A stretch of DNA of 51,352 bases from Gammaproteobacteria bacterium (GTDB lineage Bacteria; Pseudomonadota; Gammaproteobacteria; DSM-19610): positions 1-51,352 of the forward strand of contig JAUXGZ010000003.1 of NCBI GenBank assembly GCA_030621785.1. The letters are read 5' to 3'. Of the stretch, positions 1-46,160 are shown piece by piece (positions within the stretch are counted from its first letter, which is position 1; the number at the start of each line of letters is the position of its first letter). The notes beneath the pieces were generated by a model, which saw nothing but the letters and a program-made list of their open reading frames with translations, was not told the origin of the DNA and ran no database searches. The translations under genes were made by a program, and so were the position numbers.

Positions 1-1
1 C

Positions 2-574
2 GCACAGCAACACACCATCCGCTACAGCCGCCCCGGAACTCGCATCGACCTGGGCGGAATTGCCAAGGGACACGCAGTAGACCGTAGCCTGGCACTGCTG
101 AAACAGATGGGTATCGAACATGCACTGATCACCGCGGGTGGCGACAGCCGGGTAACGGGAGACCGCTGGGGACGCCCCTGGACTATCGGAGTGCGTAACC
201 CGCGCGACAGGGACAAACTGGTAGCAGTCGTTCCCCTGATGGACGTTGCCGTATCGACATCCGGTGACTATGAACGCTTCTTCGAGGAAGACGGCGTGCG
301 CTATCATCATATCATCGACCCGGCGTCGGGCGACTCGGCGCGTGAACTGCGCAGTGTCACTATTATCGGCGCCGACGCCACCACCACCGATGCACTGTCT
401 ACCAGCGTTTTTGTTCTTGGCCTGGAACGCGGCCTGGCACTGGTCAACCGCCTGGCAGATACCGACGCCATTCTGGTCGATGGTAACGGTCGCATGCATT
501 ATTCGGCGGAGCTGGAAAGCGTCAGGGAAACCGGTCAAAACATCAAGCCCCGGTCAGCATCCGGCACGCCCTGA
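2..574 (+). CDS. apbE: FAD:protein FMN transferase (ApbE family), 5' end outside window
   Basis: Frame open from base 2; motifs RIDLGGIAKGHAVD, ALITAGGDSRVTG, HHIIDPASG and ATTTDALSTSVFVLG are typical of ApbE. Confidence 0.9.
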   Translation, partial: AQQHTIRYSRPGTRIDLGGIAKGHAVDRSLALLKQMGIEHALITAGGDSRVTGDRWGRPWTIGVRNPRDRDKLVAVVPLMDVAVSTSGDYERFFEEDGVRYHHIIDPASGDSARELRSVTIIGADATTTDALSTSVFVLGLERGLALVNRLADTDAILVDGNGRMHYSAELESVRETGQNIKPRSASGTP

Positions 575-805: not shown

Positions 806-1327
806 ATGAAAATTTGTTCCAGAATCGCAGCCGGGCTGCTGCTGTGGCCTCTGCTGTGTAGCGCCGAACCATCCGCGCCGCCGGACCCGGGCTTATCCGA
901 ACAGGTACAGGACCTGAAAAAGCAGGTACTGGAACTCAATCGCGACCTGTTCCTGCTCGAGGAGGAACTGCTGTTTCCCTCCAACACCCAGGTATCGGTA
1001 TTCGTATCCATGGACGTCGGCGAATTCTTCGCACTCGACTCGGTCAAGCTGAAGATCGACGGCAAGGAAGTAGCCGATTACCTGTACACCGAGCGAGAAG
1101 TGAAGGCGCTGGTACGTGGCGGCGTGCAACGTATCCATATCGGCAACCTGCGTACCGGAGAACACGAACTGGTCGCCTTCTTTACCGGCAAGGGTCCGCA
1201 CGGCCGCGACTACAAGCGTGGTGCCACCATGAAGATCACCAAGGCACTGGGCCCAAGCTACGTTGAACTGAAAATCGTCGACAGGACCAGTAACTACCGG
1301 CCCGAATTTGCCATCAAGGAATGGTAG
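806..1327 (+). CDS. Conserved hypothetical secreted protein with N-terminal coiled coil
   Basis: MKICSRIAAGLLLWPLLCSAEP signal peptide, heptad-like region LSEQVQDLKKQVLELNRDLFLLEEELLF; overlaps next CDS. Start at 806 preferred over 722 because of the signal peptide. Confidence 0.7.
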   Translation: MKICSRIAAGLLLWPLLCSAEPSAPPDPGLSEQVQDLKKQVLELNRDLFLLEEELLFPSNTQVSVFVSMDVGEFFALDSVKLKIDGKEVADYLYTEREVKALVRGGVQRIHIGNLRTGEHELVAFFTGKGPHGRDYKRGATMKITKALGPSYVELKIVDRTSNYRPEFAIKEW

Positions 1328-3183
1328 TGTCCAGGCAGCGCTTTTCGATCCCGCTACTTTTATTTCTGTTGGCATGTACGGTCGGCAGCCGGGCGGCGCC
1401 GGAACCGCCACAGCAAGTACGCGACCTGCATTATGGCGAAGTATTGTTTCATTTCTATCAGCAGGACTACTTCACCGCCATCACCCGCCTGATGATGGCC
1501 AGTGAACAGCAGCAGTTACAGCACCACGAAAACGAAGCCGAACTGCTACTGGGTGGCCTGCAGCTTTCCTACGGCATGCTCGATCAGGCCGAGGCACGTT
1601 TCCGCCGGCTGATCGGTCCTGATACCGATCCGGAAACAAAGAGCCGGGCCTGGTTTTACCTCGCCAGGATCGCGTACCAGCGCGGCTTGTTCCGCAAAGC
1701 CCGTAGCGCACTGCAGGAAGCCGGCCTGCCGGATAATCCCGGTCAACGGGCAGAACTGCTGCTGTTGACCGCCAACGTCCGTATGGCACTGGGCGAAAAT
1801 AATGAAGCGGCCGAAGCGCTGTCCGACGCACGGGCACCGGAAGACTGGCACGAATATCTGAGAATCAACCGGGGCATTGCACTATTGCGAGCCGGCCACA
1901 CCAGCGAAGGGCGCGAAGTGCTCGATCAACTGGGCCAGTCCCGCGCCGGCAACGAGGAACTGCGCGCCCTGCGGGATCGCGCTAACACCGGTCTGGGTTA
2001 CGAACTGCTGCGCGCCGGTGAAGCCGGACAGGCCCGTGACTACCTGGGCCGCGTCCGGCTGAGTGGCCCTTATATGCAGGCCGCACTGCTGGGTGCAGGC
2101 TGGGCCGACGCCGACCTGGGACACTACGAAGAAGCGCTGGTACCCTGGCTAAAATTACTCGAACAGAGCAGTTTCGACGCCCCCGTTCAGGAAGCGCAGC
2201 TGGCGGTTCCCTATGCATTTACAAAACTGGGGGATAACCAGCGCGCCATTCATTTCTATGAAGCCGCTATCGCGCACTATGACCGGCAGCAACAGGATCT
2301 GGACACAGCCATCGACAGCGTTCAGTCCGGCGCCATGCTGGCATTGCTGGATCAGGCCGATACCGGCACCTCCGGCGGCTGGCTGCACGCCAACCCCGAG
2401 CTGAAAAATGCACCGGCCGATCGCTACCTCGTCGATGTGTTGTCCGGCAACCGTTTCCAGGAAACCCTGAAAGACTACCGGGACCTTGGCTACCTGAACG
2501 TGCTGCTGGGCGAGTGGCAGGAAAATATCGGCGTTTACTACGACATGGTCGACGCGCGCCGACTGGCCTACCAGCAGCGAGAACCGCTCATCCGCGCACA
2601 ACTGGAACAAAATAGCGCCCGCTCACTGGGCGAACGATGGCAACAATACCGGCAGAAACTCGACCGGCTGCAGGCAGACGATGACCCGCAGGGCCTGGCC
2701 ACCGGCAAGGAACAGCAACAGTGGCAAATGCTTGAACAGCTTCAGGCGCGGCTGGCAGCCATGCCTGGCAACCCTCGCCAGGAAAAAATGCTGGAGCGGG
2801 CCAAATGGCTGCAAGGCGTACTCTACTGGCAGATCCAGGCAGATTACAAAACCCGGCTGTGGAAAATACGCAAACAACTCGGGGCGCTGGAAAGCGGCGT
2901 AGCGGAAGCCACGCAGCGGCACGAGCAGGTCAGCACAGCGCTCAGCAATGTCCGCAACGGTTTCGCCGGTTACGAACAGCGTATCGAGGTACTGCGCAAG
3001 CGCATCTTCGCACTGCAACCGGACATTCGTCAGGCGCGCACCGATGCCAGTGTCGTGTTACGCCAGCTGGCGCTGCAGGAACTCGAACAGCGCAGGCAAC
3101 GCCTGGCCAGTTACCGCAGTCAGGCCCGCTATGCGCTGGCCCGCACCTACGACCAGCTGGCGCATAACGGAGAACCTGGATGA
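1321..3183 (+). CDS. TPR-repeat periplasmic/envelope protein
   Basis: 620 aa, signal peptide, multiple TPR-like repeats (e.g. LSYGMLDQAEARFRRLI, FYLARIAYQRGLFRKARSALQEAG), C-terminal coiled coil. Confidence 0.75.
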   Translation: MVVSRQRFSIPLLLFLLACTVGSRAAPEPPQQVRDLHYGEVLFHFYQQDYFTAITRLMMASEQQQLQHHENEAELLLGGLQLSYGMLDQAEARFRRLIGPDTDPETKSRAWFYLARIAYQRGLFRKARSALQEAGLPDNPGQRAELLLLTANVRMALGENNEAAEALSDARAPEDWHEYLRINRGIALLRAGHTSEGREVLDQLGQSRAGNEELRALRDRANTGLGYELLRAGEAGQARDYLGRVRLSGPYMQAALLGAGWADADLGHYEEALVPWLKLLEQSSFDAPVQEAQLAVPYAFTKLGDNQRAIHFYEAAIAHYDRQQQDLDTAIDSVQSGAMLALLDQADTGTSGGWLHANPELKNAPADRYLVDVLSGNRFQETLKDYRDLGYLNVLLGEWQENIGVYYDMVDARRLAYQQREPLIRAQLEQNSARSLGERWQQYRQKLDRLQADDDPQGLATGKEQQQWQMLEQLQARLAAMPGNPRQEKMLERAKWLQGVLYWQIQADYKTRLWKIRKQLGALESGVAEATQRHEQVSTALSNVRNGFAGYEQRIEVLRKRIFALQPDIRQARTDASVVLRQLALQELEQRRQRLASYRSQARYALARTYDQLAHNGEPG

Positions 3184-5966
3184 AGCACCACGCACGTCTG
3201 CTGGTGCTGACTCTGGGGCTGGCAGCTACCGGCTGCTCTTCCCTGTCAGAACACAATGACGCCACCATCAGTTCGCTCGAAAGTCCGGAACTACCGGAGG
3301 TGACGGCAGCCACGCCGCAGGACAACCGCGCAGCCGCCATGCGTCACTACCAGGCATTTCTTGACGAATCTTCCGATAACCGCTTTGTTCCCGAGGCCAT
3401 GCGCCGACTGGCCGACATCTACCAGGCCGAGGAACAGGAAGCTGTCATGCAGGGTACTTCCCTGCCCGGCAGCACAAATTCGCGCGCCGCAGAACTGTAC
3501 GCAGAACTGCTGCAGCGGTTTCCGCAACACGAGCGCAACGACAGCGCCCTTTATCAGCTGGCCCGCGCCCATGAACAAAGTGGCGACCTGCAGCCCTCCA
3601 TGCTGGCGATGACCCGCTATTCCACCGACTATCCCGGCGCCAACAGGTACGACGAGGTCCAGTTCCGCCGTGGCGAGTACCTGTTCACCCGGCGTGACTA
3701 TGCCGGCGCCGAGCTTGCCTACCTGGCAGTACTCGACCGGGGCACGGATTCCGTATTTCATCGTCAGGCGCTGTACAAGATCGGCTGGGCACGCTTCAAG
3801 CAGGACCACTACGAAACAGCACTGGATGCCTACATACAGTTGCTGGACGAGAGCATTGTCACGCATGCCTCGGCAAGCTTGCCGGATAATCTGGAACGTG
3901 CCGAACAGGAACGCGTCGAGGACACCCTGCGCGCAGTCAGCCTGAGTTTTTCCTACCTTGGTGACAGCACGGAAATCCGCAATTACTTCAGCAACCGCGG
4001 TCCGCGGGAATACGAGCCACTGCTGTACGCAAAACTGGCCGCCCTGTACCTGAGCAAGGAACGCTACACCGATGCCGCCGAAAGCTACCGGCTGTTTGCC
4101 CGGGTACATCCACAGCACCGGGAAGCACCCCTGTTCCAGTCGCGGGTAATCGATGTCTTCAAACAGGCCGGATTCAGTAGTCGGGTACTGGAAGAAAAGC
4201 AGGCCTTCGTGGAACGCTATCAGCCCGCCAGCGATTACTGGAAGGAACGCGACCCGGCGGCGGCCACCGATGTCATGCGCCAGGTACAACGCCACCTTGC
4301 CGATGTAGCGCAGCACTACCATGCCCGGGCGCTGGAAGTGAAAAACACTGCCGGCTGGGATGCAGCCGGGAAATGGTACCGCCTGTACCTGTCATCGTTC
4401 CGCAACAGCGAACGCGCCCCCTACATGAACTTTCTCTACGCAGAGTTGCTGACCAGTGCCGACAGGGATGCACAGGCAGCGGCCGAATACGAACAGACTG
4501 CTTATGCATACGGCAGCTACGACAAGGCGGCGGAAGCAGGCTATGCAGCGGTGCTCGCCTACCGAAAGCACGAGGCCAGGGTGGACGCGCAGCACAGACC
4601 CGATTGGCACCGACGCTCCATTGACAGCAGCCTGCGCTTTGCCGCCGCGTTCCCCACACACGAATATGCGCTTCCGGTGCGCACCCTGGCTGCCCGGCAG
4701 CTGTATGTGCTGGGTGATTATCAGGCCGCGATCGAAGCCGCCCGGCCGGTGAGTATCGATACCCGGGCATCACAGAAACTGCGCACCACAGCCTGGACGG
4801 TTATTGCCCATGCACAATTTGATCTGCATGACTTCGAACAAGCCGAAGCTGCCTATCAGCAGGTACTGGCACAACCCGGCCACAAGAAAAGCGAGTATGC
4901 AAAGCTGCAGGAGAAACTTGCCGCCAGCATTTACAAGCAAGGTGAACAGGCACGCGAGCGGGGCGAGCTGAACATAGCCGCGCAGCACTTCCTGCGTATT
5001 GCCGGCGCGGTACCCGCATCCGGCATCAATACCACCGCCCAGTACGACGCCGCAGCCGCGTATATCGCGCTGAAGAACTGGCCCGATGCAATCCGTATTC
5101 TGGAACGCTGGCGTCAAAACAATCCGCAGCACCAGCTGAATACCGATGTAACCCGCAAGCTCGCAGTCCTCTACCAGGAGAACAAACAGCCGGTGCAGGC
5201 GGCGGCCGAGTTCGGGCGCATCGCTGAGCGCGAAAAGGATCCGGCACTCCGACGCGAAGCCCTGTGGACCATGGCCGGTCTCTACGAACAGGCTCGTATG
5301 GACAGACAGTCCATTACGGCGTGGAAGAACTACATCCGGCAGTTCCCGCAACCGCTGGAGCCATCCCTGGAAGCGCGCTACAAACTGGTATTACTGTACG
5401 GCAAAGCCGGCGTCACCGACAAACAGCGCTACTGGCAAAAACAGATCATCGCAACCGATCGGAACGCCGGGCGGCAACGCTCCGATCGCAGCCGCTTCCT
5501 GGCGGCACACGCGCAGCTTGCCCTGACCGCGGCAGATCTTGCTGCCTACCAGGCAACCCGACTGCGTGAACCCCTGAAGAAAAATCTGGCGCGCAAGCAG
5601 AAATACCTGCAGGCAAGCATCAAGGGTTACAAGGCCGCCGCCGCTTACCAGGTATCGATGGTGACCACACAGGCCACCCATGAAATCGGCACACTGTATC
5701 GTGACTTCGGCAAGGCGCTGATGGAATCCGAGCGGCCGGGCGGGTTAAATGCCGAGGAACTGGAGCAATACGAAATACTCCTGGAAGAACAGGCCTATCC
5801 GTTCGAGGAAAAAGCTATCGCAGTCTACGAAACCAACGCGCAGCGAATCCCCGCCGGCATATACGACAAGTGGGTGCGCAAAAGCATGGCGTCACTGGCC
5901 GAACTGATGCCGGTACGTTACGCCAAACAGGAAAGAGGTGAGAAATTTGTCGCCGTTTTACAATAA
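3180..5966 (+). CDS. Large TPR-repeat lipoprotein
   Basis: 928 aa; lipobox LGLAATGCSS; many TPR-like repeats; ATGA overlap with upstream CDS. Confidence 0.8.
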   Translation: MKHHARLLVLTLGLAATGCSSLSEHNDATISSLESPELPEVTAATPQDNRAAAMRHYQAFLDESSDNRFVPEAMRRLADIYQAEEQEAVMQGTSLPGSTNSRAAELYAELLQRFPQHERNDSALYQLARAHEQSGDLQPSMLAMTRYSTDYPGANRYDEVQFRRGEYLFTRRDYAGAELAYLAVLDRGTDSVFHRQALYKIGWARFKQDHYETALDAYIQLLDESIVTHASASLPDNLERAEQERVEDTLRAVSLSFSYLGDSTEIRNYFSNRGPREYEPLLYAKLAALYLSKERYTDAAESYRLFARVHPQHREAPLFQSRVIDVFKQAGFSSRVLEEKQAFVERYQPASDYWKERDPAAATDVMRQVQRHLADVAQHYHARALEVKNTAGWDAAGKWYRLYLSSFRNSERAPYMNFLYAELLTSADRDAQAAAEYEQTAYAYGSYDKAAEAGYAAVLAYRKHEARVDAQHRPDWHRRSIDSSLRFAAAFPTHEYALPVRTLAARQLYVLGDYQAAIEAARPVSIDTRASQKLRTTAWTVIAHAQFDLHDFEQAEAAYQQVLAQPGHKKSEYAKLQEKLAASIYKQGEQARERGELNIAAQHFLRIAGAVPASGINTTAQYDAAAAYIALKNWPDAIRILERWRQNNPQHQLNTDVTRKLAVLYQENKQPVQAAAEFGRIAEREKDPALRREALWTMAGLYEQARMDRQSITAWKNYIRQFPQPLEPSLEARYKLVLLYGKAGVTDKQRYWQKQIIATDRNAGRQRSDRSRFLAAHAQLALTAADLAAYQATRLREPLKKNLARKQKYLQASIKGYKAAAAYQVSMVTTQATHEIGTLYRDFGKALMESERPGGLNAEELEQYEILLEEQAYPFEEKAIAVYETNAQRIPAGIYDKWVRKSMASLAELMPVRYAKQERGEKFVAVLQ

Positions 5967-6549
5967 ATTCTGCATCGCCGTACTCACTGCCGTGCTACTG
6001 GGTGGATGTACCGGCAGCATGGTAAAACCGGACGCAGGGAGTACGCCACAAGCCGCCACCAAACTGCCGCGCGCATACGAACAGGCACTGGGCCTGATGC
6101 GTACCGGCGACTACCCGGCAGCCATCCCCGCACTGCAGGCCTTCATCGAGGAGCAGCCGGAACTGGCCGGTCCCCGGGTCAATCTCGGCATTGCTTTCCG
6201 CCAGACCGGCCAACATGACAAAGCTCTGCAAGCACTGCACGAAGCCGTGCGACTGAACCCTGACAGTGCCACCGCCCATCATCAGCTGGGTATCGAGTAT
6301 CGCGAACAGGGCCGCTTCGAGTCAGCACAGCAAGCCTATCAACAGGCGCTGACGCTGGATGCGGATTACGCCCTGGCGCACCGCAATATCGGCATCCTGT
6401 ACGACCTGTACCTGCAACAGCCGGTGCTGGCACTCGATCATTACCGCAGCTACCTGGAACTGGAAACTGAACCTGACAAAACCGTCAACCGATGGGTAGT
6501 CGACCTGGAGCGCCGCACCGCCAGTGCGCAGGCGAGTGCCAAACCATGA
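5938..6549 (+). CDS. TPR-repeat lipoprotein
   Basis: GTG start, lipobox VLLGGCTGS, canonical TPRs (ALQALHEAVRLNPDSATAHHQLGIEYREQGRFESAQQAYQQALTLDADYALAHRNIGILY). Confidence 0.85.
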   Translation: MRNLSPFYNKFCIAVLTAVLLGGCTGSMVKPDAGSTPQAATKLPRAYEQALGLMRTGDYPAAIPALQAFIEEQPELAGPRVNLGIAFRQTGQHDKALQALHEAVRLNPDSATAHHQLGIEYREQGRFESAQQAYQQALTLDADYALAHRNIGILYDLYLQQPVLALDHYRSYLELETEPDKTVNRWVVDLERRTASAQASAKP

Positions 6550-6833
6550 AAGCGCGTCAGCACCGGGTATGTGGCTATCTGACTGCACTGCTGCTGTTCT
6601 GCAGTCTTGCCCCGGCAACGGCCACCGAACGCCTGGAGCTCGATGGCATGGCCGTCATCGGTAATCGTGAGCTCCCCAAGGCTCTGTTCATTGTTCCCTG
6701 GAAAGACCCGGGTGCCGCCGAAGCACCCAACCGGCCGGTCAACAGCCTGGTCAATGAGACCCTGCAACCCGTCGATCCGGAAGTTTTCCGCAGAAAACTT
6801 CAATATTTCGACACAGTTCACAAAACAGACTAA
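6546..6833 (+). CDS. Small secreted hypothetical protein
   Basis: 95 aa with signal peptide MKARQHRVCGYLTALLLFCSLAPATA; ATGA overlap with the TPR gene. Confidence 0.6.
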   Translation: MKARQHRVCGYLTALLLFCSLAPATATERLELDGMAVIGNRELPKALFIVPWKDPGAAEAPNRPVNSLVNETLQPVDPEVFRRKLQYFDTVHKTD

Positions 6834-6886
6834 AGCTGCCGGGCTTTGGCCCCGAAAACCCGTACGTTACTCATAAGGAGTTCAGC

Positions 6887-7531
6887 ATGGATATCTATTC
6901 ATCACTCGTTCAGTTCTTCCAGTCCGGCGGACTGTTCATGTACCCCATCGTGGTAGTGCTGGCTCTCGGGGTCGCTATCGCCGTGGAACGCTACGTCTAT
7001 CTGACGGCCGCACGCGCCACCAACCAGCGTGTGTGGAAACAGGTAATGCCGCTGCTGATGGAAGGCAAGTACAGTCAGGCAGTCGCCATCACCGAGAAAT
7101 CCCGGGCAGCGCTGGGACGCATTCTGCGCTACGGACTGAACCGTGCAGATGGCTCACAAAAACGTGACGACGTGGAAGTGGCCATGGAGGAAGGCCTGAT
7201 GGAGACCGTGCCACGGCTTGAGAAACGCACTCATTACCTGGCTACCTTCGCCAATATCGCCACCCTGCTGGGACTGCTCGGCACCATCATGGGACTGATC
7301 CAGGCCTTTACCGCGGTTGCCAATGCCAATCCGGCGGAGAAAGCCGACATGCTGTCTGCCAGTATCTCGGTAGCCATGAACACCACGGCCTTTGGCCTCA
7401 TGGCCGCCATCCCGCTACTGCTGATCTACACTGTGCTGCAGACCAAGACCACCGAGCTGGTCGATAGCCTGGAAATGGCTTCCGTGAAATTCCTCAATAT
7501 CCTGACCGAGCGTAAGGGAACCGCTGCCTGA
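6887..7531 (+). CDS. MotA/TolQ/ExbB proton channel family protein
   Basis: TM motifs FANIATLLGLLGTIMGLIQAF and SISVAMNTTAFGLMAAIPLLLIY. Confidence 0.92.
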   Translation: MDIYSSLVQFFQSGGLFMYPIVVVLALGVAIAVERYVYLTAARATNQRVWKQVMPLLMEGKYSQAVAITEKSRAALGRILRYGLNRADGSQKRDDVEVAMEEGLMETVPRLEKRTHYLATFANIATLLGLLGTIMGLIQAFTAVANANPAEKADMLSASISVAMNTTAFGLMAAIPLLLIYTVLQTKTTELVDSLEMASVKFLNILTERKGTAA

Positions 7532-8061
7532 TGAAACGGCGCTGGCGCAAACAACACACCGGGGCTCCGGCCGAAGTAAATATTACGGCCTTCATGAACC
7601 TGATGGTCATCCTGGTACCGTTCCTGCTGATCACTGCCGTGTTCTCCCGCATCACCGTGCTAGACCTGAACCTGCCGGCGCCCGGAAGCGCACAACCACT
7701 GTCTGCAAGGGACGAACCGGAACTGCAACTGGAAATTACCGTGCGCGAAGAGGCTATCGAAATCGGCGACCGCAAGCGCGGGCTACTGAAGTTTATCCCG
7801 GTAGCAAGCGACGGCAGTCACCTGGTGAAAGTATCAACGATGCTGCAAAGCATCAAGGCACGCTACCCCGACAAGCAGGATGTAACCCTGCTGCTGGAGA
7901 GCGATATCACCTATGAGCGGGTGGTGGAAATGATGGATACCCTGCGCGTCGCACGGGTCGAGCAGGAAGACGGGGCTGTCTTTGCTGAACTGTTCCCTGC
8001 CATTTCCATCGGCGACGCGCCGGTTGTGGATCTGCGCACCGCTAAAAGGAACCGCAAATGA
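7531..8061 (+). CDS. ExbD/TolR family protein (subunit 1, Asn at the expected Asp position)
   Basis: Single N-terminal TM EVNITAFMNLMVILVPFLLITAVF; follows the ExbB gene with 1-nt overlap. Confidence 0.85.
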   Translation: MKRRWRKQHTGAPAEVNITAFMNLMVILVPFLLITAVFSRITVLDLNLPAPGSAQPLSARDEPELQLEITVREEAIEIGDRKRGLLKFIPVASDGSHLVKVSTMLQSIKARYPDKQDVTLLLESDITYERVVEMMDTLRVARVEQEDGAVFAELFPAISIGDAPVVDLRTAKRNRK

Positions 8062-8558
8062 AGCAGTCGCGGCGCGCCAGACGCATGCAGCGTCACCACC
8101 AGCGCAACAAAGGCACACCAGCCTTTAACCTGGTGTCACTGATGGATATCTTTACCATCCTGGTATTTTTTCTGCTGGTCAACTCCGGTGAAGGTGAAGT
8201 GCTGCCGAGCACCAAAAGTGTCGAACTGCCGGAATCTATCTCTGAACAGAAACCCGAACAGAACGTTGTTGTGATGGTCACCAGAAAAGACGTCCTGGTG
8301 CAGGGTACACCGGTAGCCACACTTGCTGCGATCGACAAGCGAGACCGCGCGGCGATCAACTCGCTGCTGGGTGCGCTGCAGGCACAACAAAAGGCCCGCA
8401 TCCTTGGCAACAGCAAGGCCGCGGTGCCTGCCGTCACTATCATGGGCAGCAGGCAGATTCCCTATCACCTGCTGAAATCTGTCATGGCCGCCTGCACCGA
8501 AGCGGGTTACGGCAAGATTTCACTGGCGGTATTGCAGAAACCGGCGCAGGAAAGCTAG
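8058..8558 (+). CDS. ExbD/TolR family protein (subunit 2)
   Basis: FNLVSLMDIFTILVFFLLVNS TM with conserved Asp; ATGA overlap with preceding CDS. Confidence 0.88.
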   Translation: MKQSRRARRMQRHHQRNKGTPAFNLVSLMDIFTILVFFLLVNSGEGEVLPSTKSVELPESISEQKPEQNVVVMVTRKDVLVQGTPVATLAAIDKRDRAAINSLLGALQAQQKARILGNSKAAVPAVTIMGSRQIPYHLLKSVMAACTEAGYGKISLAVLQKPAQES

Positions 8559-8561
8559 CTT

Positions 8562-9518
8562 ATGTCGATGGTCTATTCCCATTCCCTGCTGCTGCCCTGG
8601 TCGGTCTCGTCAGAAGATCAGCGCCGTTTTCGCGGGATACTGGTCGGCATGCTGGTGTTTACGATGGTGCTGGGGATCACCATTCCCCTGTTGCCGGTAT
8701 TCAAGGCAGCCGCACAACAGGAGGTTCAGCTTCCACCGCGGATAGCCAAACTGATTTTCGAGAAACGTACCGAACCGAAACCACCACCGAAGCCCGAGCC
8801 GGTAAAAAAAGCCGAACCCAAAGCGGATAAAAAAGCATCGAAGAAACCTCTGCCGAAAAAGAAAGTGCCGCCGAAAGTAGCAAAGAAACCGGCGCCCAAA
8901 CCAAAAGTGGATGTCGTCGAACAGGCGCGCAAAAAAGCTTCCAGCGCCGGCCTGCTTGCCATGTCGGATGCGCTGGCTGATCTGCGCGACCAGTCTGTCG
9001 ATGAGTTGCAGGGAGGGAAACGCCTGAGCAACAGCGGCACCAAAGCCAACCGCACCGAGCGTTCCCTGCTTAGCTCAAGAGTCGGTTCTGCCAGCAAGGG
9101 CATCAATACCGCTGCCCTGAGCCGTGACACCGGTTCCACACAACTGGCTGGCCGCACCGCGACCCAAGTAAAAAGTTCCATCGATGCGCTATCACCGAAC
9201 CGAAAATCGCAAGGCAACCGTCGCAGTGCTTCGCGTAGCATCGAGGAAATCCAGATCGTGTTCGACAAAAACAAGAGCGCTATCTACAGCATGTACAACC
9301 GCGCGCTGCGCAAGGATTCAACCCTGCAGGGCAAGCTTGTTCTGCAACTAACCATTGCACCGTCCGGCAAGGTTACCGGCATCGAACTGGTTTCCAGCGA
9401 GCTCGGCGATCCGGCACTGGAACGCAAACTGGTGCAACGCATCAAGATGATCAACTTTGGTGCCAAAGCAGTAGGTAGCGTCACACTCACCTATCCCATT
9501 GACTTCCTGCCGGCATAA
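8562..9518 (+). CDS. TonB/TolA-like energy transducer with AgmX/PglI-type C-terminal domain
   Basis: N-terminal TM, Pro/Lys-rich spacer (EPKPPPKPEPVKKAEPKADKK...), C-terminal IEEIQIVFDKNKSAIYSMYNRALRKDSTLQGKLVLQLTIAPSGKVTGIELVSSELGDPALERKLVQRIKMINFG. Confidence 0.85.
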   Translation: MSMVYSHSLLLPWSVSSEDQRRFRGILVGMLVFTMVLGITIPLLPVFKAAAQQEVQLPPRIAKLIFEKRTEPKPPPKPEPVKKAEPKADKKASKKPLPKKKVPPKVAKKPAPKPKVDVVEQARKKASSAGLLAMSDALADLRDQSVDELQGGKRLSNSGTKANRTERSLLSSRVGSASKGINTAALSRDTGSTQLAGRTATQVKSSIDALSPNRKSQGNRRSASRSIEEIQIVFDKNKSAIYSMYNRALRKDSTLQGKLVLQLTIAPSGKVTGIELVSSELGDPALERKLVQRIKMINFGAKAVGSVTLTYPIDFLPA

Positions 9519-9544
9519 GCCCGGCAATACCCGAGGCAAGCATC

Positions 9545-9775
9545 ATGCGTAAGCGCATACGATTACTCACTGCACTCACTATCCTGCTGCTGTTCGGCTG
9601 TTCCGGTGACAACGGAGAGTCCGAGTCTGCTACACGGGCAACGGCACCCGTCAACACCAGCCGCGTATCGACCGAGAATGTGTTCAGCAGCCAGGTACAG
9701 GCCCTCGAACAAGCGGAACAGGTCGACCGGATGGTACTGGAACATAAACGGGCCATTGACGCCCGGCTGCAGTAA
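9545..9775 (+). CDS. Small lipoprotein
   Basis: 76 aa, lipobox LLLFGCSGD; last gene of the operon. Confidence 0.6.
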   Translation: MRKRIRLLTALTILLLFGCSGDNGESESATRATAPVNTSRVSTENVFSSQVQALEQAEQVDRMVLEHKRAIDARLQ

Positions 9776-10042: not shown

Positions 10043-10249
10043 ATGACTACAGGTACCGTTAAGTGGTTCAATGAAGCCAAGGGCTTCGGCTTTATCTCTC
10101 CGTCTGATGGCAGCGCCGATGTGTTCGTGCATTTCTCTGCCATCCAGGGCGGTGGCTTCAAGTCACTGGCGGAAGGACAGGCGGTCTCGTTTGACGTTGA
10201 AAATGGCCCCAAGGGTCTACAGGCTGCAAACGTTAACCCGACCAGCTGA
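10043..10249 (+). CDS. Cold-shock domain protein (CspA family)
   Basis: [64 protein letters not shown]. Confidence 0.97.
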
Positions 10250-18714: not shown

Positions 18715-19572
18715 TTAGCGGGCCAGATAATCCAGCACGATACCGGCAAACACAACGGCACCGAACCAGTTGTTATTCAGAAACGCCTGAAAACAGGCCT
18801 TTGGCTCGCGATCGCGTATCAGGTATTGCTGGTACAGGGCCAGCGCAGCCGCCAGCAGCAAACCAAAAGAGTAATAACTTCCCAGGTCCGCAACCTGCCC
18901 CGCCAGTGACAGTGCACCCAGCACCATCAACTGGATAACAGCGATGATCGCACGGTCGGCATCACCGAACAGGATCGCGGTGGACTTCACCCCGATTTTC
19001 ACATCATCTTCCCGATCCACCATGCCATACATGGTGTCGTAGGCGGTTGCCCACAGGACCGTAGCGATGTACAGCAACCATGCCATCCTCGGCACGCCGC
19101 CGGTCTGCGCGGCGAAGGCCATCGGCACCGCCCATCCGAATGCGGCCCCCAGATAAATCTGGGGCAGGCTGGTATAGCGTTTCATGAAAGGGTAGCTTGC
19201 CGCCAGCACTACGCCCACCAATGACAGGTAGATAGTCAGCCGATTCAACAACAATACCAGCGCAAACGCGGCCAGACACAGAATGGCAAACAGGAGCAGC
19301 GCCTCCACCGGCTGGACACGACCGGCAGCAACGGGACGATCCCTGGTGCGTGCCACGTGGGGGTCGAAACCGCGGTCCGCATAATCATTAATCACGCACC
19401 CGGCCGAACGCATCAGGATTACACCGGCGACAAACACCAGCAGCACCGGCAGATCGGGGTGTCCTTCACTGGCAATCCATAAGGCCCACAGCGTCGGCCA
19501 CAGCAACAGGAGGATGCCGATCGGTCTGTGCAGGCGCATCAGCAACGCGTATTGAACCAGTCTGTCTTTCAT
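18715..19572 (-). CDS. ubiA: 4-hydroxybenzoate octaprenyltransferase
   Basis: [68 protein letters not shown]. Confidence 0.96.
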
Positions 19573-41245: not shown

Positions 41246-42357
<1,112 letters not shown>

Positions 42358-42358
<1 letters not shown>

Positions 42359-42927
42359 TGGCACATATCAATCTGCTGCCCTGGCGCGAGGAACTGCGCA
42401 AGCAGAAACAGCAACAGTTCATTGTCATTTCCGCAGGTACCGCCATTGTCGGCGTACTGCTGGTGCTCATGGTGCACATGCAAATCGACGTACTCATCGA
42501 CCGGCAGGACCAGCGCAACAGTTTCCTGGAAAGCGAGATCAGCGCCCTGGACAAGAAGATAGCCCGGATAAAGGACCTGGAAAAAACCAAAACGGCACTG
42601 CTGGCACGCATGGATATTATCCAGCAACTGCAGCGCAGCCGCCCCCAGAGCGTGCACCTCATGGATGAGCTGGTATACACCCTGCCCGACGGAGCCTACC
42701 TGAGCCGCATTGCCCAGAGTAATACATCACTAACCCTTACCGGCAGGGCACAGTCCAACGCCCGGGTATCTGCCTACATGCGCAATATCGACAGCTCGGA
42801 CTGGATGGGTGGACCGAAGCTGGATGTCATCAAGACCACCGAAGATGGCCGCAGCCGCAACGCCAGCTTTGTGCTGCGGGCAAACCAGCAGACACCGGTC
42901 AGTAAATCTGACGAGGAGCAAGGCTGA
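42358..42927 (+). CDS. pilN: Type IV pilus assembly protein PilN
   Basis: MAHINLLPWREELRKQKQQQF; position. Confidence 0.96.
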
Positions 42928-43520
42928 TGGATCTGTCTGAACTGAATGATCTCGATCTTGGCAATATTGCCAACTGGCCACTACCCGCCCGCATCGTGAT
43001 GGTTGTCATGATTTTCGCGGCCGTACTGGGCCTTGGCTACTGGCTGGATATAAAGGACCAGGGCATACGCCTCGAAACGGTGGAAAAGAAGGAAATCGAG
43101 CTCCGGCAGACCTTCGAAGTCAAGGCCAAGAAAGCTGCCAACCTGGTTGCCTACGAGCAGCAGCTGGAAGAAATCAAGGAATCCTTTGGCGCCATGCTGC
43201 GGCAGCTGCCTAACAAGACAGAAGTCGCAGAGCTGCTGGTGGATATATCCCAGACCGGGCTGGCCAGTGGCCTGGAATTCGAATTATTCAAGCCGCAGAA
43301 CGAGATACCCAAGGAGTTTTATGCCGAATTACCTATCAGCATCAAGGTCAAGGGCAACTATCACGAATTCGGCAACTTCATCAGCGGGGTGGCCGCTCTG
43401 CCCCGCATTGTCACGGTACACAACGTGAACATCAGCAGGGACAAGAATAGTGGCGAACTGGCCATGAACATCCTTGCCAAGACCTATCGATACCTGGATG
43501 AAGAAGGAGGCGCACAATGA
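42927..43520 (+). CDS. pilO: Type IV pilus inner membrane protein PilO
   Basis: LPNKTEVAELLVDISQTGLASGLEFELFKP; position. Confidence 0.96.
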   Translation: MDLSELNDLDLGNIANWPLPARIVMVVMIFAAVLGLGYWLDIKDQGIRLETVEKKEIELRQTFEVKAKKAANLVAYEQQLEEIKESFGAMLRQLPNKTEVAELLVDISQTGLASGLEFELFKPQNEIPKEFYAELPISIKVKGNYHEFGNFISGVAALPRIVTVHNVNISRDKNSGELAMNILAKTYRYLDEEGGAQ

Positions 43521-44053
43521 TTCGCCGGCATCCCGTTGCATACGGTATTGCCGCGGTGCTGGCCGTGACACTCACGGCCTGCAGCGGCAACAACACGGAA
43601 GATCTGCACGCCTATGCGGAGCAAGTCAAGGCGCGGCAGCACGCCAGAGTCGAACCTCTGCCGGAGTTCACGCCGTATGAGACGCACCTGTACCAGGCAC
43701 TGAACGACCGCGACCCGTTCACGGTACCGGTACGTTCACAGCCCCGCTCGACGATCGCCCAGAGTTCCAACAATGGTCTTTCACCTGACTTCAACCGGGC
43801 GCGCGAACCACTGGAAAGTGAGCCACTGGACAGTCTTCGCATGGTCGGAACACTGGAACGCGGCCACATATCCTGGGCTCTGGTACGCATGAGCGACAGC
43901 ACTATTCACCGAGTCCAGCCCGGCAATTACCTGGGCGAGAATCACGGAAAAATCATACGTGTAACCGAATCTGAAGTCGAAGTTTCCGAGATCGTACCGG
44001 ATGGCCTCGGGGGATGGATGGAACGCCAGGCTGCACTGGGACTGAGCGAGTAA
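43517..44053 (+). CDS. pilP: Type IV pilus lipoprotein PilP
   Basis: Lipobox LTACSGN; DSLRMVGTLERGHISWALVRMSDSTIHRVQPGNYLGENHGKI. Confidence 0.96.
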   Translation: MIRRHPVAYGIAAVLAVTLTACSGNNTEDLHAYAEQVKARQHARVEPLPEFTPYETHLYQALNDRDPFTVPVRSQPRSTIAQSSNNGLSPDFNRAREPLESEPLDSLRMVGTLERGHISWALVRMSDSTIHRVQPGNYLGENHGKIIRVTESEVEVSEIVPDGLGGWMERQAALGLSE

Positions 44054-44054
44054 T

Positions 44055-46160
44055 TTGGAGACGAAAATGAACGCTACGATGACATGGAATCAAACGGTGA
44101 AGGGCATTCTGCTCGTTGGAACCCTGCTCCTGAGCTGCGCCTGGCAGCAGGTATCTGCAAGTACACCGCAGATTAACACTCTCAACTCAATTGATTTTGC
44201 GGGGCTGCCCGGTGACCAGGTGCAAATCACCTTCAACCTCAGCCAGCCGGCAAGCAATCCGGCCAGCTTTACCATTGACAACCCGGCACGTATCGCACTC
44301 GACCTGCCTGATACCAGGAGCGCGCTGAAACAACGCTCCCGGGAAATCGGGGTCGGGGCGGCAAAAAGCATCACCACAGTGCAGGTGAAGGACCGAACCC
44401 GGGTGGTGGTCAACCTGTTCGAGATGGTTCCCTACGAAACCCGAACCGATGGCAATCAGCTCATTGTGCTACTCGGCAAGGGCGCCGGCAAGAGCGCACC
44501 GGGCAGTGATACGACACGAGCTGCCAGCTCGAACACCTCCATAACCGATATCGATTTCCGGCGTGGTGATGATGGTGAGGGCCGGGTCATCATTTCTCTG
44601 TCTGATCCATCGATCCCGGTAGACTTGAACCAGCAGGGCGGCAAAGTAGTGATGGACTTCCGCGGTGCGTCACTGCCGGAAGAACTGCAACGCCGTCTGG
44701 ATGTCACCGATTTCGCCACGCCGGTGAAGCTCATCGACACCGAAAGCAGTCGCAACGGCGTGCATATAGAAATCACCTCACTCGGCGAGTACCAGCACCT
44801 GGCCTACCAGTCGGACAACCAGTTTACTGTCGAAATCCGCAAGACCACCAGGGAAGAACAGGAAGCCCGCAAGAAATCCGAATTTGGCTACACCGGCGAA
44901 CGCCTGTCGCTGAACTTCCAGAACATCGAAGTTCGTGCAGTACTGCAGCTGCTGGCGGACTTCACCGGCACCAATATCGTCGTCAGCGACTCGGTTAACG
45001 GCAGCCTCACCCTGCGCATGCAGAACGTACCCTGGGACCAGGCACTGGATATCGTGCTGCGCACCAAGGGCCTGGACAAGCGTCTGAATGGTAACGTAAT
45101 GCTGATTGCACCCAGCGCAGAAATCGCGGCTCGTGAAAAACTGGAACTCGAATCCCAGAAGCAGATCGAGGAACTTGCTCCGCTGTACGCGGATTTTATC
45201 CAGGTCAACTACGCCAAGGCGGCGGAACTGGCTGCACTGCTGAAAAGCGCAGACAGCTCACTGATGTCCAACCGGGGCAAGGTCACCATCGATGAGCGCA
45301 CCAATACCCTGTTGCTGCAGGATACCTCGGAGAAACTGGAGCAGATTCGCCGCATGGTGGCACGTCTGGATATCCCGGTTCGCCAGGTGCTGATCGAGTC
45401 CCGTATCGTGCTGGCCAAGAACGATTTTGCCCGCGACCTGGGCGTCAAATTCGGCTGGAGCCGCGCCAGTAGCTTCGATGACGACAAATTCTTCACCATC
45501 GGCGGCCGGGAAGACGGTGACACCGATTTTGGCGGCGACACGGGCTTTGAAACCCCCGCCGGCTCCGGGTTTGAAGGGCTGATCACCGACCTGCCGGCAC
45601 TCAATCCGTCCGGCTCCATCGGACTGGCCATCGGCCGCATCGGCAGCCACCTGCTGCAGCTGGAACTCAGTGCCATGCAGCTGGAAAACCGTGGCGAAGT
45701 CGTCTCCAGTCCACGGGTCATCACCTCCAACCAGCAGGAAGCGCTGATCCAGCAGGGTGTGGAAATCCCCTACCAGCAGGCCTCCTCAAGTGGCGCCACG
45801 GCCGTGACCTTCAAGGAAGCGGTACTGCAGCTGAAGGTAACACCGCAGATCACACCGGATGACCACATCATCATGGATCTCGATGTCAGCAAGGACAACG
45901 TCGGTGAAGTGTTCAACGGCGTCCCCAGTATCGATACCCGTAACGTCCGGACCAGCGTACTGGTAGACAACGGCGAAACCCTGGTACTGGGCGGGATCTA
46001 CGAGCAGAGCCGTAAAAGAGAAGTCGAACGGGTACCGTTTTTCGGTGAACTGCCAGGCCTCAGCTGGCTGTTCAAGACCGAGCGAAACACGGATGACAAG
46101 AGCGAAATGCTCATCTTCGTCACGCCGAAAATCATAAAGGACGAGATCGCCCTCAACTGA
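44055..46160 (+). CDS. pilQ: Type IV pilus secretin PilQ
   Basis: AMIN domain, STN/N0 domain, secretin domain [25 protein letters not shown]...; start may be 44067. Confidence 0.97.

Follow-up and report, generated by a model that had tools for sequence, protein, structure and literature searches.

An Agl/Glt-type envelope machinery operon in a gammaproteobacterium and its conserved linkage to outer-membrane barrel and flavin/heme genes

Organization of the operon

The window analyzed in this study, that is, the whole stretch of 51,352 nucleotides at the start of contig JAUXGZ010000003.1, comes from a metagenome-assembled genome (MAG) of 2.15 Mb, 75% complete, which among named relatives is closest to MAGs of Thiogranum and Thiohalobacter. 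ORF calling revealed ten genes (g1 to g10) on the forward strand between positions 806 and 9775. The initial annotation had described nine genes with overlaps of 1–4 nt; the common orientation and the overlapping arrangement were retained, but the genes number ten and the intergenic distances from g1 to g9 (−7, −4, −29, −4, +53, −1, −4, and +3 nt) include an overlap of 29 nt.

The first gene, g1 (806–1327), encodes a secreted protein that is a conserved component of the core. Its AlphaFold model (pLDDT 87.5) consisted of a coiled-coil helix plus a beta-sandwich, in agreement with the coiled-coil secreted protein initially described. The comparison of this fold with the PDB gave no significant match; the beta-sandwich structures retrieved were all weak matches (best E 0.0035). 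It is followed by three genes for TPR proteins. The product of g2 (1321–3183; Pfam TPR_19) is secreted and GltC-like in size, signal peptide and collinear context; that of g3 (3180–5966; Pfam TPR/YfiO and NCBIfam YbgF-type repeats) is a large, GltD-like lipoprotein with zero matches in the plasmid collection; and that of g4 (5938–6549; TPR_11, 5.7e-21) is a small, GltE-like lipoprotein. The start codon of g4 is the GTG at 5938, and its lipobox reads LLGGC; a lipobox was present in 75 of 90 sequences, while the score of g4 against the NCBIfam GltE model (58 bits) was under the cut-off. Gene g5 (6546–6833) encodes a small secreted protein with a strikingly conserved motif in the alignment of relatives, GNxExP...(I)VPWK...PxD...R, and its place in the gene order is also kept among them. 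Neither g1 nor g5 had a relevant family match in Pfam or NCBIfam, though both are conserved, and no family is known there for a small secreted protein bearing the g5 motif.

The channel genes are g6 (6887–7531), for an ExbB/TolQ/AglR-type motor subunit (MotA_ExbB, 1e-30), and g7 (7531–8061) and g8 (8058–8558), both for ExbD/TolR-type proteins (ExbD, 3.2e-14 and 9.9e-16, respectively). They are followed by g9 (8562–9518), which encodes a TonB/GltG/GltJ-type transducer with one TM helix, a linker rich in proline and lysine (19 and 26%, respectively) and an AgmX/PglI C-terminal domain (NF033768, 69.5 bits; cut-off 40). The family matches thus bear out the three TPR proteins, the single ExbB/TolQ, the two ExbD/TolR and the TonB-like protein with an AgmX/PglI-type C-terminus read from the sequence at the outset. 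The last gene, g10 (9545–9775), does encode a small predicted lipoprotein, as had been proposed, but no homologue was found by tblastn in any relative examined. Therefore, it probably lies outside the system.

Conservation of the gene set

The order and orientation of g1 to g9 were kept among relatives down to about 30% protein identity (tblastn). Across about 100 other gammaproteobacterial loci, a set that includes some duplicates of one contig, the nine genes were almost always collinear where the contig was long enough; the exceptions were L044, which lacks g5 to g9, and L061, L119 and L134, which lack g1 and g2 or more. The TPR and channel genes were strictly co-conserved, and the neighborhood comparison, named initially as a possible source of evidence against a common machine, thus did not refute it. 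The conservation of the g1–g9 set is far beyond chance. Among 369 gammaproteobacterial genomes, g1 was present in 84.

Two kinds of core locus could be distinguished (L140–L147, L150–L158), one linked to redox genes and the other standalone. The neighbors of the standalone cores look like housekeeping genes (LptD/SurA-like and citrate synthase-like, as judged by eye), and g1 scored lower in these than in the redox-linked cores.

Affiliation with the Agl/Glt core complex

The resemblance to the AglR-AglQ-AglS motor plus Glt proteins that was noted initially is confirmed by the combination of one ExbB, two ExbD, an AgmX/PglI transducer and TPR proteins, and we firmly assign the operon to the AglRQS-GltC/D/E/G family of core complexes. 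The comparative work on related gammaproteobacterial loci to which the initial annotation had alluded does exist: Luciano et al. (2011; PMC3169522) reported in Gammaproteobacteria a clustered core complex, of unknown function, that combines AglRQS, GltC, GltD, GltE and GltG with one additional gene, and such a core was later named standalone basal transport machinery (Wartel et al., 2013; PMC3858216). The present loci share with it the tandem of one ExbB and two ExbD, a TonB-like transducer with an AgmX/PglI-type C-terminus, and TPR proteins in one operon, where g2, g3 and g4 match GltC, GltD and GltE by size and export signal rather than by sequence comparison with Myxococcus xanthus. The published core also includes one extra gene absent from myxobacteria. 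The loci studied here differ in two extra conserved genes, g1 and g5, and in their upstream linkage to candidate outer-membrane (OM) barrels and a redox module.

The motor, the AgmX/PglI transducer and the TPR proteins are also shared with the Agl-Glt gliding and Agl-Nfs spore-coat machineries of M. xanthus, the former of which has in GltA/GltB a pair of OM beta-barrels similar in size to the pair described below. However, g9 is far shorter than M. xanthus GltG and GltJ, and it scored 33 and 46 bits against their models (equivalog cut-offs 650 and 450, respectively). In addition, GltF, GltH, GltI and GltK were not found among the recurrent neighbors of the core in the clustering of neighboring ORFs from about 100 loci. 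It must be noted that the contig scan for relatives returned gammaproteobacterial-type loci and zero myxobacteria.

The operon belongs to the same motor superfamily as Tol-Pal and TonB-ExbBD, with which it shares 5:2-type motor families and a TonB-like C-terminus, and the closest PDB sequences are TolQ and ExbB. Nevertheless, both the tree and the other genes of this genome already contradict the view that the locus is simply one of these two systems, which we consider almost certainly wrong. In an ExbB tree of 38 rows, built without myxobacterial AglR, the 29 operon-type ExbB formed one group (support 80/94) apart from the TolQ, TtpC and ExbB2 of the same genome and from Escherichia coli TolQ and ExbB; the placement of the channel genes inside the Tol-Pal or TonB clades, which the initial annotation had set against its own reading, was not observed. 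The scores against the TolQ and ExbB equivalog models (69.8 and 52.6 bits) were far under the cut-offs (221 and 206, respectively). The operon differs further in its heterologous ExbD pair and in the absence of tolB, pal and a receptor gene. Moreover, the genome, with seven MotA/ExbB-family matches in total, encodes a Tol operon on contig C33 and a TtpC/ExbB2/ExbD2/TonB2 operon on contig C49, so that the usual Tol and Ton tasks have their own genes outside this operon. Membership in Tol-Pal and in TonB-ExbBD was rejected on these grounds. Zorya defense (ZorA/ZorB plus ZorC-E) was also rejected, given that the ZorA matches were only marginal (best 3.8e-05). A second ExbB/ExbD pair was seen near one redox-linked locus (L169:16583–17640, reverse strand), and the tree places it apart from the core-type sequences.

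Channel residues of the motor proteins

Both channel threonines of g6, Thr133 and Thr167, were present in 97 of 97 sequences, and the proton-carrying channel Asp of g8 (Asp30) in 91 of 91. The corresponding position of g7, occupied by Asn23 in the window, was Asn in 92 of 94 sequences and Asp in the remaining 2. The same Asn/Asp split between the two ExbD proteins appeared in most standalone cores of other families, one of them with Ser. In M. xanthus, in contrast, a channel Asp is predicted for AglQ as well as for AglS (reviewed in PMC9389320). From this residue pattern we infer that the motor would use a g7/g8 heterodimer with a single protonatable site, and the conserved split may offer a natural one-proton-site stator for studies of 5:2 motors.

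The upstream locus: outer-membrane barrels and redox genes

The contig is truncated within apbE, so that the window starts in the middle of this gene. The 3′ part of apbE (1–574, forward strand) encodes the end of a FAD:protein FMN transferase (Pfam ApbE, 1e-40 on 107–571), and in loci of the same genus apbE immediately precedes g1. Clustering of ORFs revealed recurrent neighbors upstream of the core on the same strand: ApbE, a TlpA-like thioredoxin, DUF3570, DUF4266 (PF14086) and two small OM proteins, OMPa and OMPb. Contig C68 of the same genome (4372 bp) carries them in the order OMPb-OMPa-TlpA-DUF4266-DUF3570-ApbE, including the N-terminal part of apbE, and overlaps the left end of the window by 428 bp with 92.8% identity. 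Given this identity, C68 represents the missing part as found in a variant strain and not the same molecule. Therefore, while the genes placed initially at 806–9775 are found there, the locus continues past the contig edge, and the context first described for the operon was without the two OM barrels and the flavin/heme module, both of which lie beyond that edge.

The full locus was contiguous in the same-genus loci L160, L161 and L162 and in L163, from another family. One strand carries the genes for a Tat-exported protein, a LamG diheme lipoprotein and a PSD2 heme protein, and the divergent strand those for an HZS-alpha-like (PF18582) diheme lipoprotein, OMPb, OMPa, TlpA, DUF4266, DUF3570, ApbE and g1 to g9. 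In other taxa the same blocks are divergent and about 11–14 kb apart, and in some genomes the core block and the redox block are divergent or separated by 10–29 kb, which weighs against a common function. The signature residues of these proteins were well conserved: two CxxCH in the HZS-like (31/31) and LamG (18/20) proteins, one CxxCH in the PSD2 proteins (20/20), a twin-arginine motif (RRxF) in 22 of 26 Tat proteins, a C-terminal CxC in 48 of 52 DUF4266 proteins, and WCxxC in 67 of 71 TlpA proteins. Hydrazine synthesis was rejected as a function, since the HZS-alpha match spans only some 65–75 residues and such homologues are without the catalytic residues (PMC12758564). The AlphaFold model of the Tat-exported protein, from 8 sequences, had no confident fold (pLDDT 33.9), and the protein had zero sequence relatives in the PDB. 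The LamG diheme lipoprotein, the PSD2 (DUF1585) heme protein and the Tat-exported protein are also found together at L140:4640–9974 (reverse strand), a set reminiscent of planctomycete LamG-cytochrome/DUF1501 pairs.

The barrels have about 220–260 residues, and their C-terminal residue is Phe in 48 of 48 sequences of one and Phe/Tyr in 44 of 44 of the other. OMPa belongs to NCBIfam TIGR04565, "OMP_myx_plus" (153.7 bits; cut-off 60), while OMPb, which has an N-terminal SH3 domain, stays under that cut-off (33.5 bits). The M. xanthus OM barrels GltA and GltB are paralogues and form a complex with GltC, a TPR protein (PMC4488436); Luciano et al. (2011; PMC3169522) assigned their genes to Myxococcales and Bdellovibrionales. 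Judged by size, pairing and context, OMPa and OMPb together with g2 look like GltA/GltB/GltC, which we regard as a lead. The tight linkage of the core to the flavin module, with these candidate barrels, suggests that OM barrels may already have belonged to the ancestral Agl/Glt machine before it came to serve in gliding.

The flavinylation of one DUF3570 protein by ApbE was demonstrated by Meheust et al. (2021; PMC8238504), who also reported clusters of ApbE, DUF3570, thioredoxin and DUF4266 genes of unknown purpose. The same four families stand side by side in C68 and in the same-genus loci; the present loci differ in that no DsbD was seen, in the linkage to an Agl/Glt motor and an HZS-alpha-like lipoprotein, and in the acceptor site. 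The published motif, [ST]GA[ST], was not matched in most of the clade, where the site is mostly SSAS/TSAS, with SGAS in 8 of 51 sequences and TSAS in the copy of this genome. By analogy, the DUF3570 barrel is probably flavinylated by ApbE, although the SSAS/TSAS site weighs against this modification.

Co-occurrence of the core and the redox genes

For the 369 genomes, the presence of g1 was taken to define core-positive genomes (84), the remaining 285 being core-negative. DUF3570 was encoded in 95 genomes, comprising 70 of the 84 core-positive and 25 of the 285 core-negative ones; the Fisher p of this association was 1.4e-39 when genomes were counted and 7e-16 when families were counted, values which are too small because the genomes are related. 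HZS-alpha was found in 56 genomes (49/84 core-positive versus 7/285 core-negative), and TIGR04565 above its cut-off also in 56, all of them core-positive (56/84 versus 0/285). With one weak g1 match left out, which leaves 83 core-positive genomes, DUF3570 immediately preceded g1, within 3 kb and in the same orientation, in 30 genomes. Of the HZS-alpha copies, 44 were 3.0–5.3 kb from DUF3570. Conversely, DUF3570 was encoded without g1 in 25 genomes, and 14 core-positive genomes have no DUF3570; in those examined, the core lies among housekeeping-looking genes. Therefore, the redox module is not obligatory and the core can serve other outputs.

Proposed function and alternative explanations

Gene content, gene order, co-occurrence and key residues, all read directly from the loci, are consistent with a trans-envelope machine of the Agl/Glt type, driven by the proton-motive force (PMF), that most likely assembles, displays or operates an OM redox complex whose genes share its locus. 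We give this reading a probability of about 0.5. By analogy with homologous systems, in which AglR binds GltG (PMC3169522), g6 and the g7/g8 heterodimer would form a proton-driven 5:2 motor. Proton flow through it would move g9, which would carry the force across the periplasm and pull or move the TPR proteins g2 to g4, together with g1 and g5, linking the motor to the OM. There, the two barrels encoded upstream would serve as GltA/GltB-like anchors, and the load may be a flavin/heme complex made up of the DUF3570 barrel, the TlpA and DUF4266 thiol proteins, the HZS-alpha-like and LamG heme lipoproteins and the Tat-exported protein. The redox output is suggested by gene context, since the core shares a conserved locus with OM barrels and flavin/heme genes in many relatives; a conserved neighborhood alone is no proof of a shared mechanism. 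We are more tentative about the narrower form of this proposal, in which the machine has a surface redox output, mechanically assembling, exporting or driving the OM flavin/heme complex with an obligate heterodimeric stator and a single protonatable Asp. If true, mechanical force would be part of extracellular electron transfer.

Several other roles must be considered. The core could be a generic Agl/Glt surface transporter that moves or compacts a surface polymer, such as slime or capsule, the redox genes being co-regulated neighbors with another task. The transport of the Exo polymer by Agl-Nfs in Myxococcus (PMC3858216), the cores without a redox module and a Fibrobacter cluster up on cellulose (FSU_2396-2403; PMC6851124), which is likened by its gene types only, agree with such a role; however, the recurrent neighbors in about 100 loci were redox and OM genes instead of genes for polysaccharide synthesis or export, and we consider it rather unlikely. 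Less probable still is an export role, in which the PMF-driven motor would move folded heme lipoproteins and the Tat-exported protein through the OM, much as GldLM drives the type IX secretion system. These candidate substrates adjoin the motor, TPR and barrel genes in the locus, but the barrels identified are small and the locus encodes no pore of SprA size. As for gliding, homology to Agl/Glt and now the candidate GltA/GltB-like barrels would speak for it; according to Luciano et al. (2011; PMC3169522), however, most carriers have no documented gliding and the core does not suffice for it, and with GltF, H, I and K not recurring around the core, gliding seems a quite improbable role in these bacteria.

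With regard to the redox-linked machine that we favor, the uncharacterized core itself was already known, while no report was found that places it together with OM barrels and flavin/heme genes. The text of Luciano et al. (2011) does not mention OM barrels and a redox module as neighbors of the core, and that of Meheust et al. (2021) contains no ExbB, TolQ, gliding or hydrazine; the linkage is thus absent from both texts, and no paper linking the two was found among the full texts searched. The gammaproteobacterial core, described in 2011, and the DUF3570/DUF4266 flavin module, described in 2021, have each been awaiting a function, and their tight linkage provides each of them with a testable partner.

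Downstream region of the window

A small protein resembling cold-shock proteins is encoded shortly downstream of the operon (10043–10249, forward strand). Further on, at 18718–19572 (reverse strand), lies the gene for a 285-residue protein of UbiA-like sequence (cf. L047:15643–16527, reverse strand), whose start closely resembles the gene directly after g9 in several same-genus loci. Given that it is situated about 9 kb further downstream in the window, an insertion or rearrangement between 9.5 and 18.7 kb seems likely. Finally, a run of pilMNOPQ-like type IV pili genes, followed by shikimate-pathway genes, was recognized by eye at 41288–46157 (forward strand).
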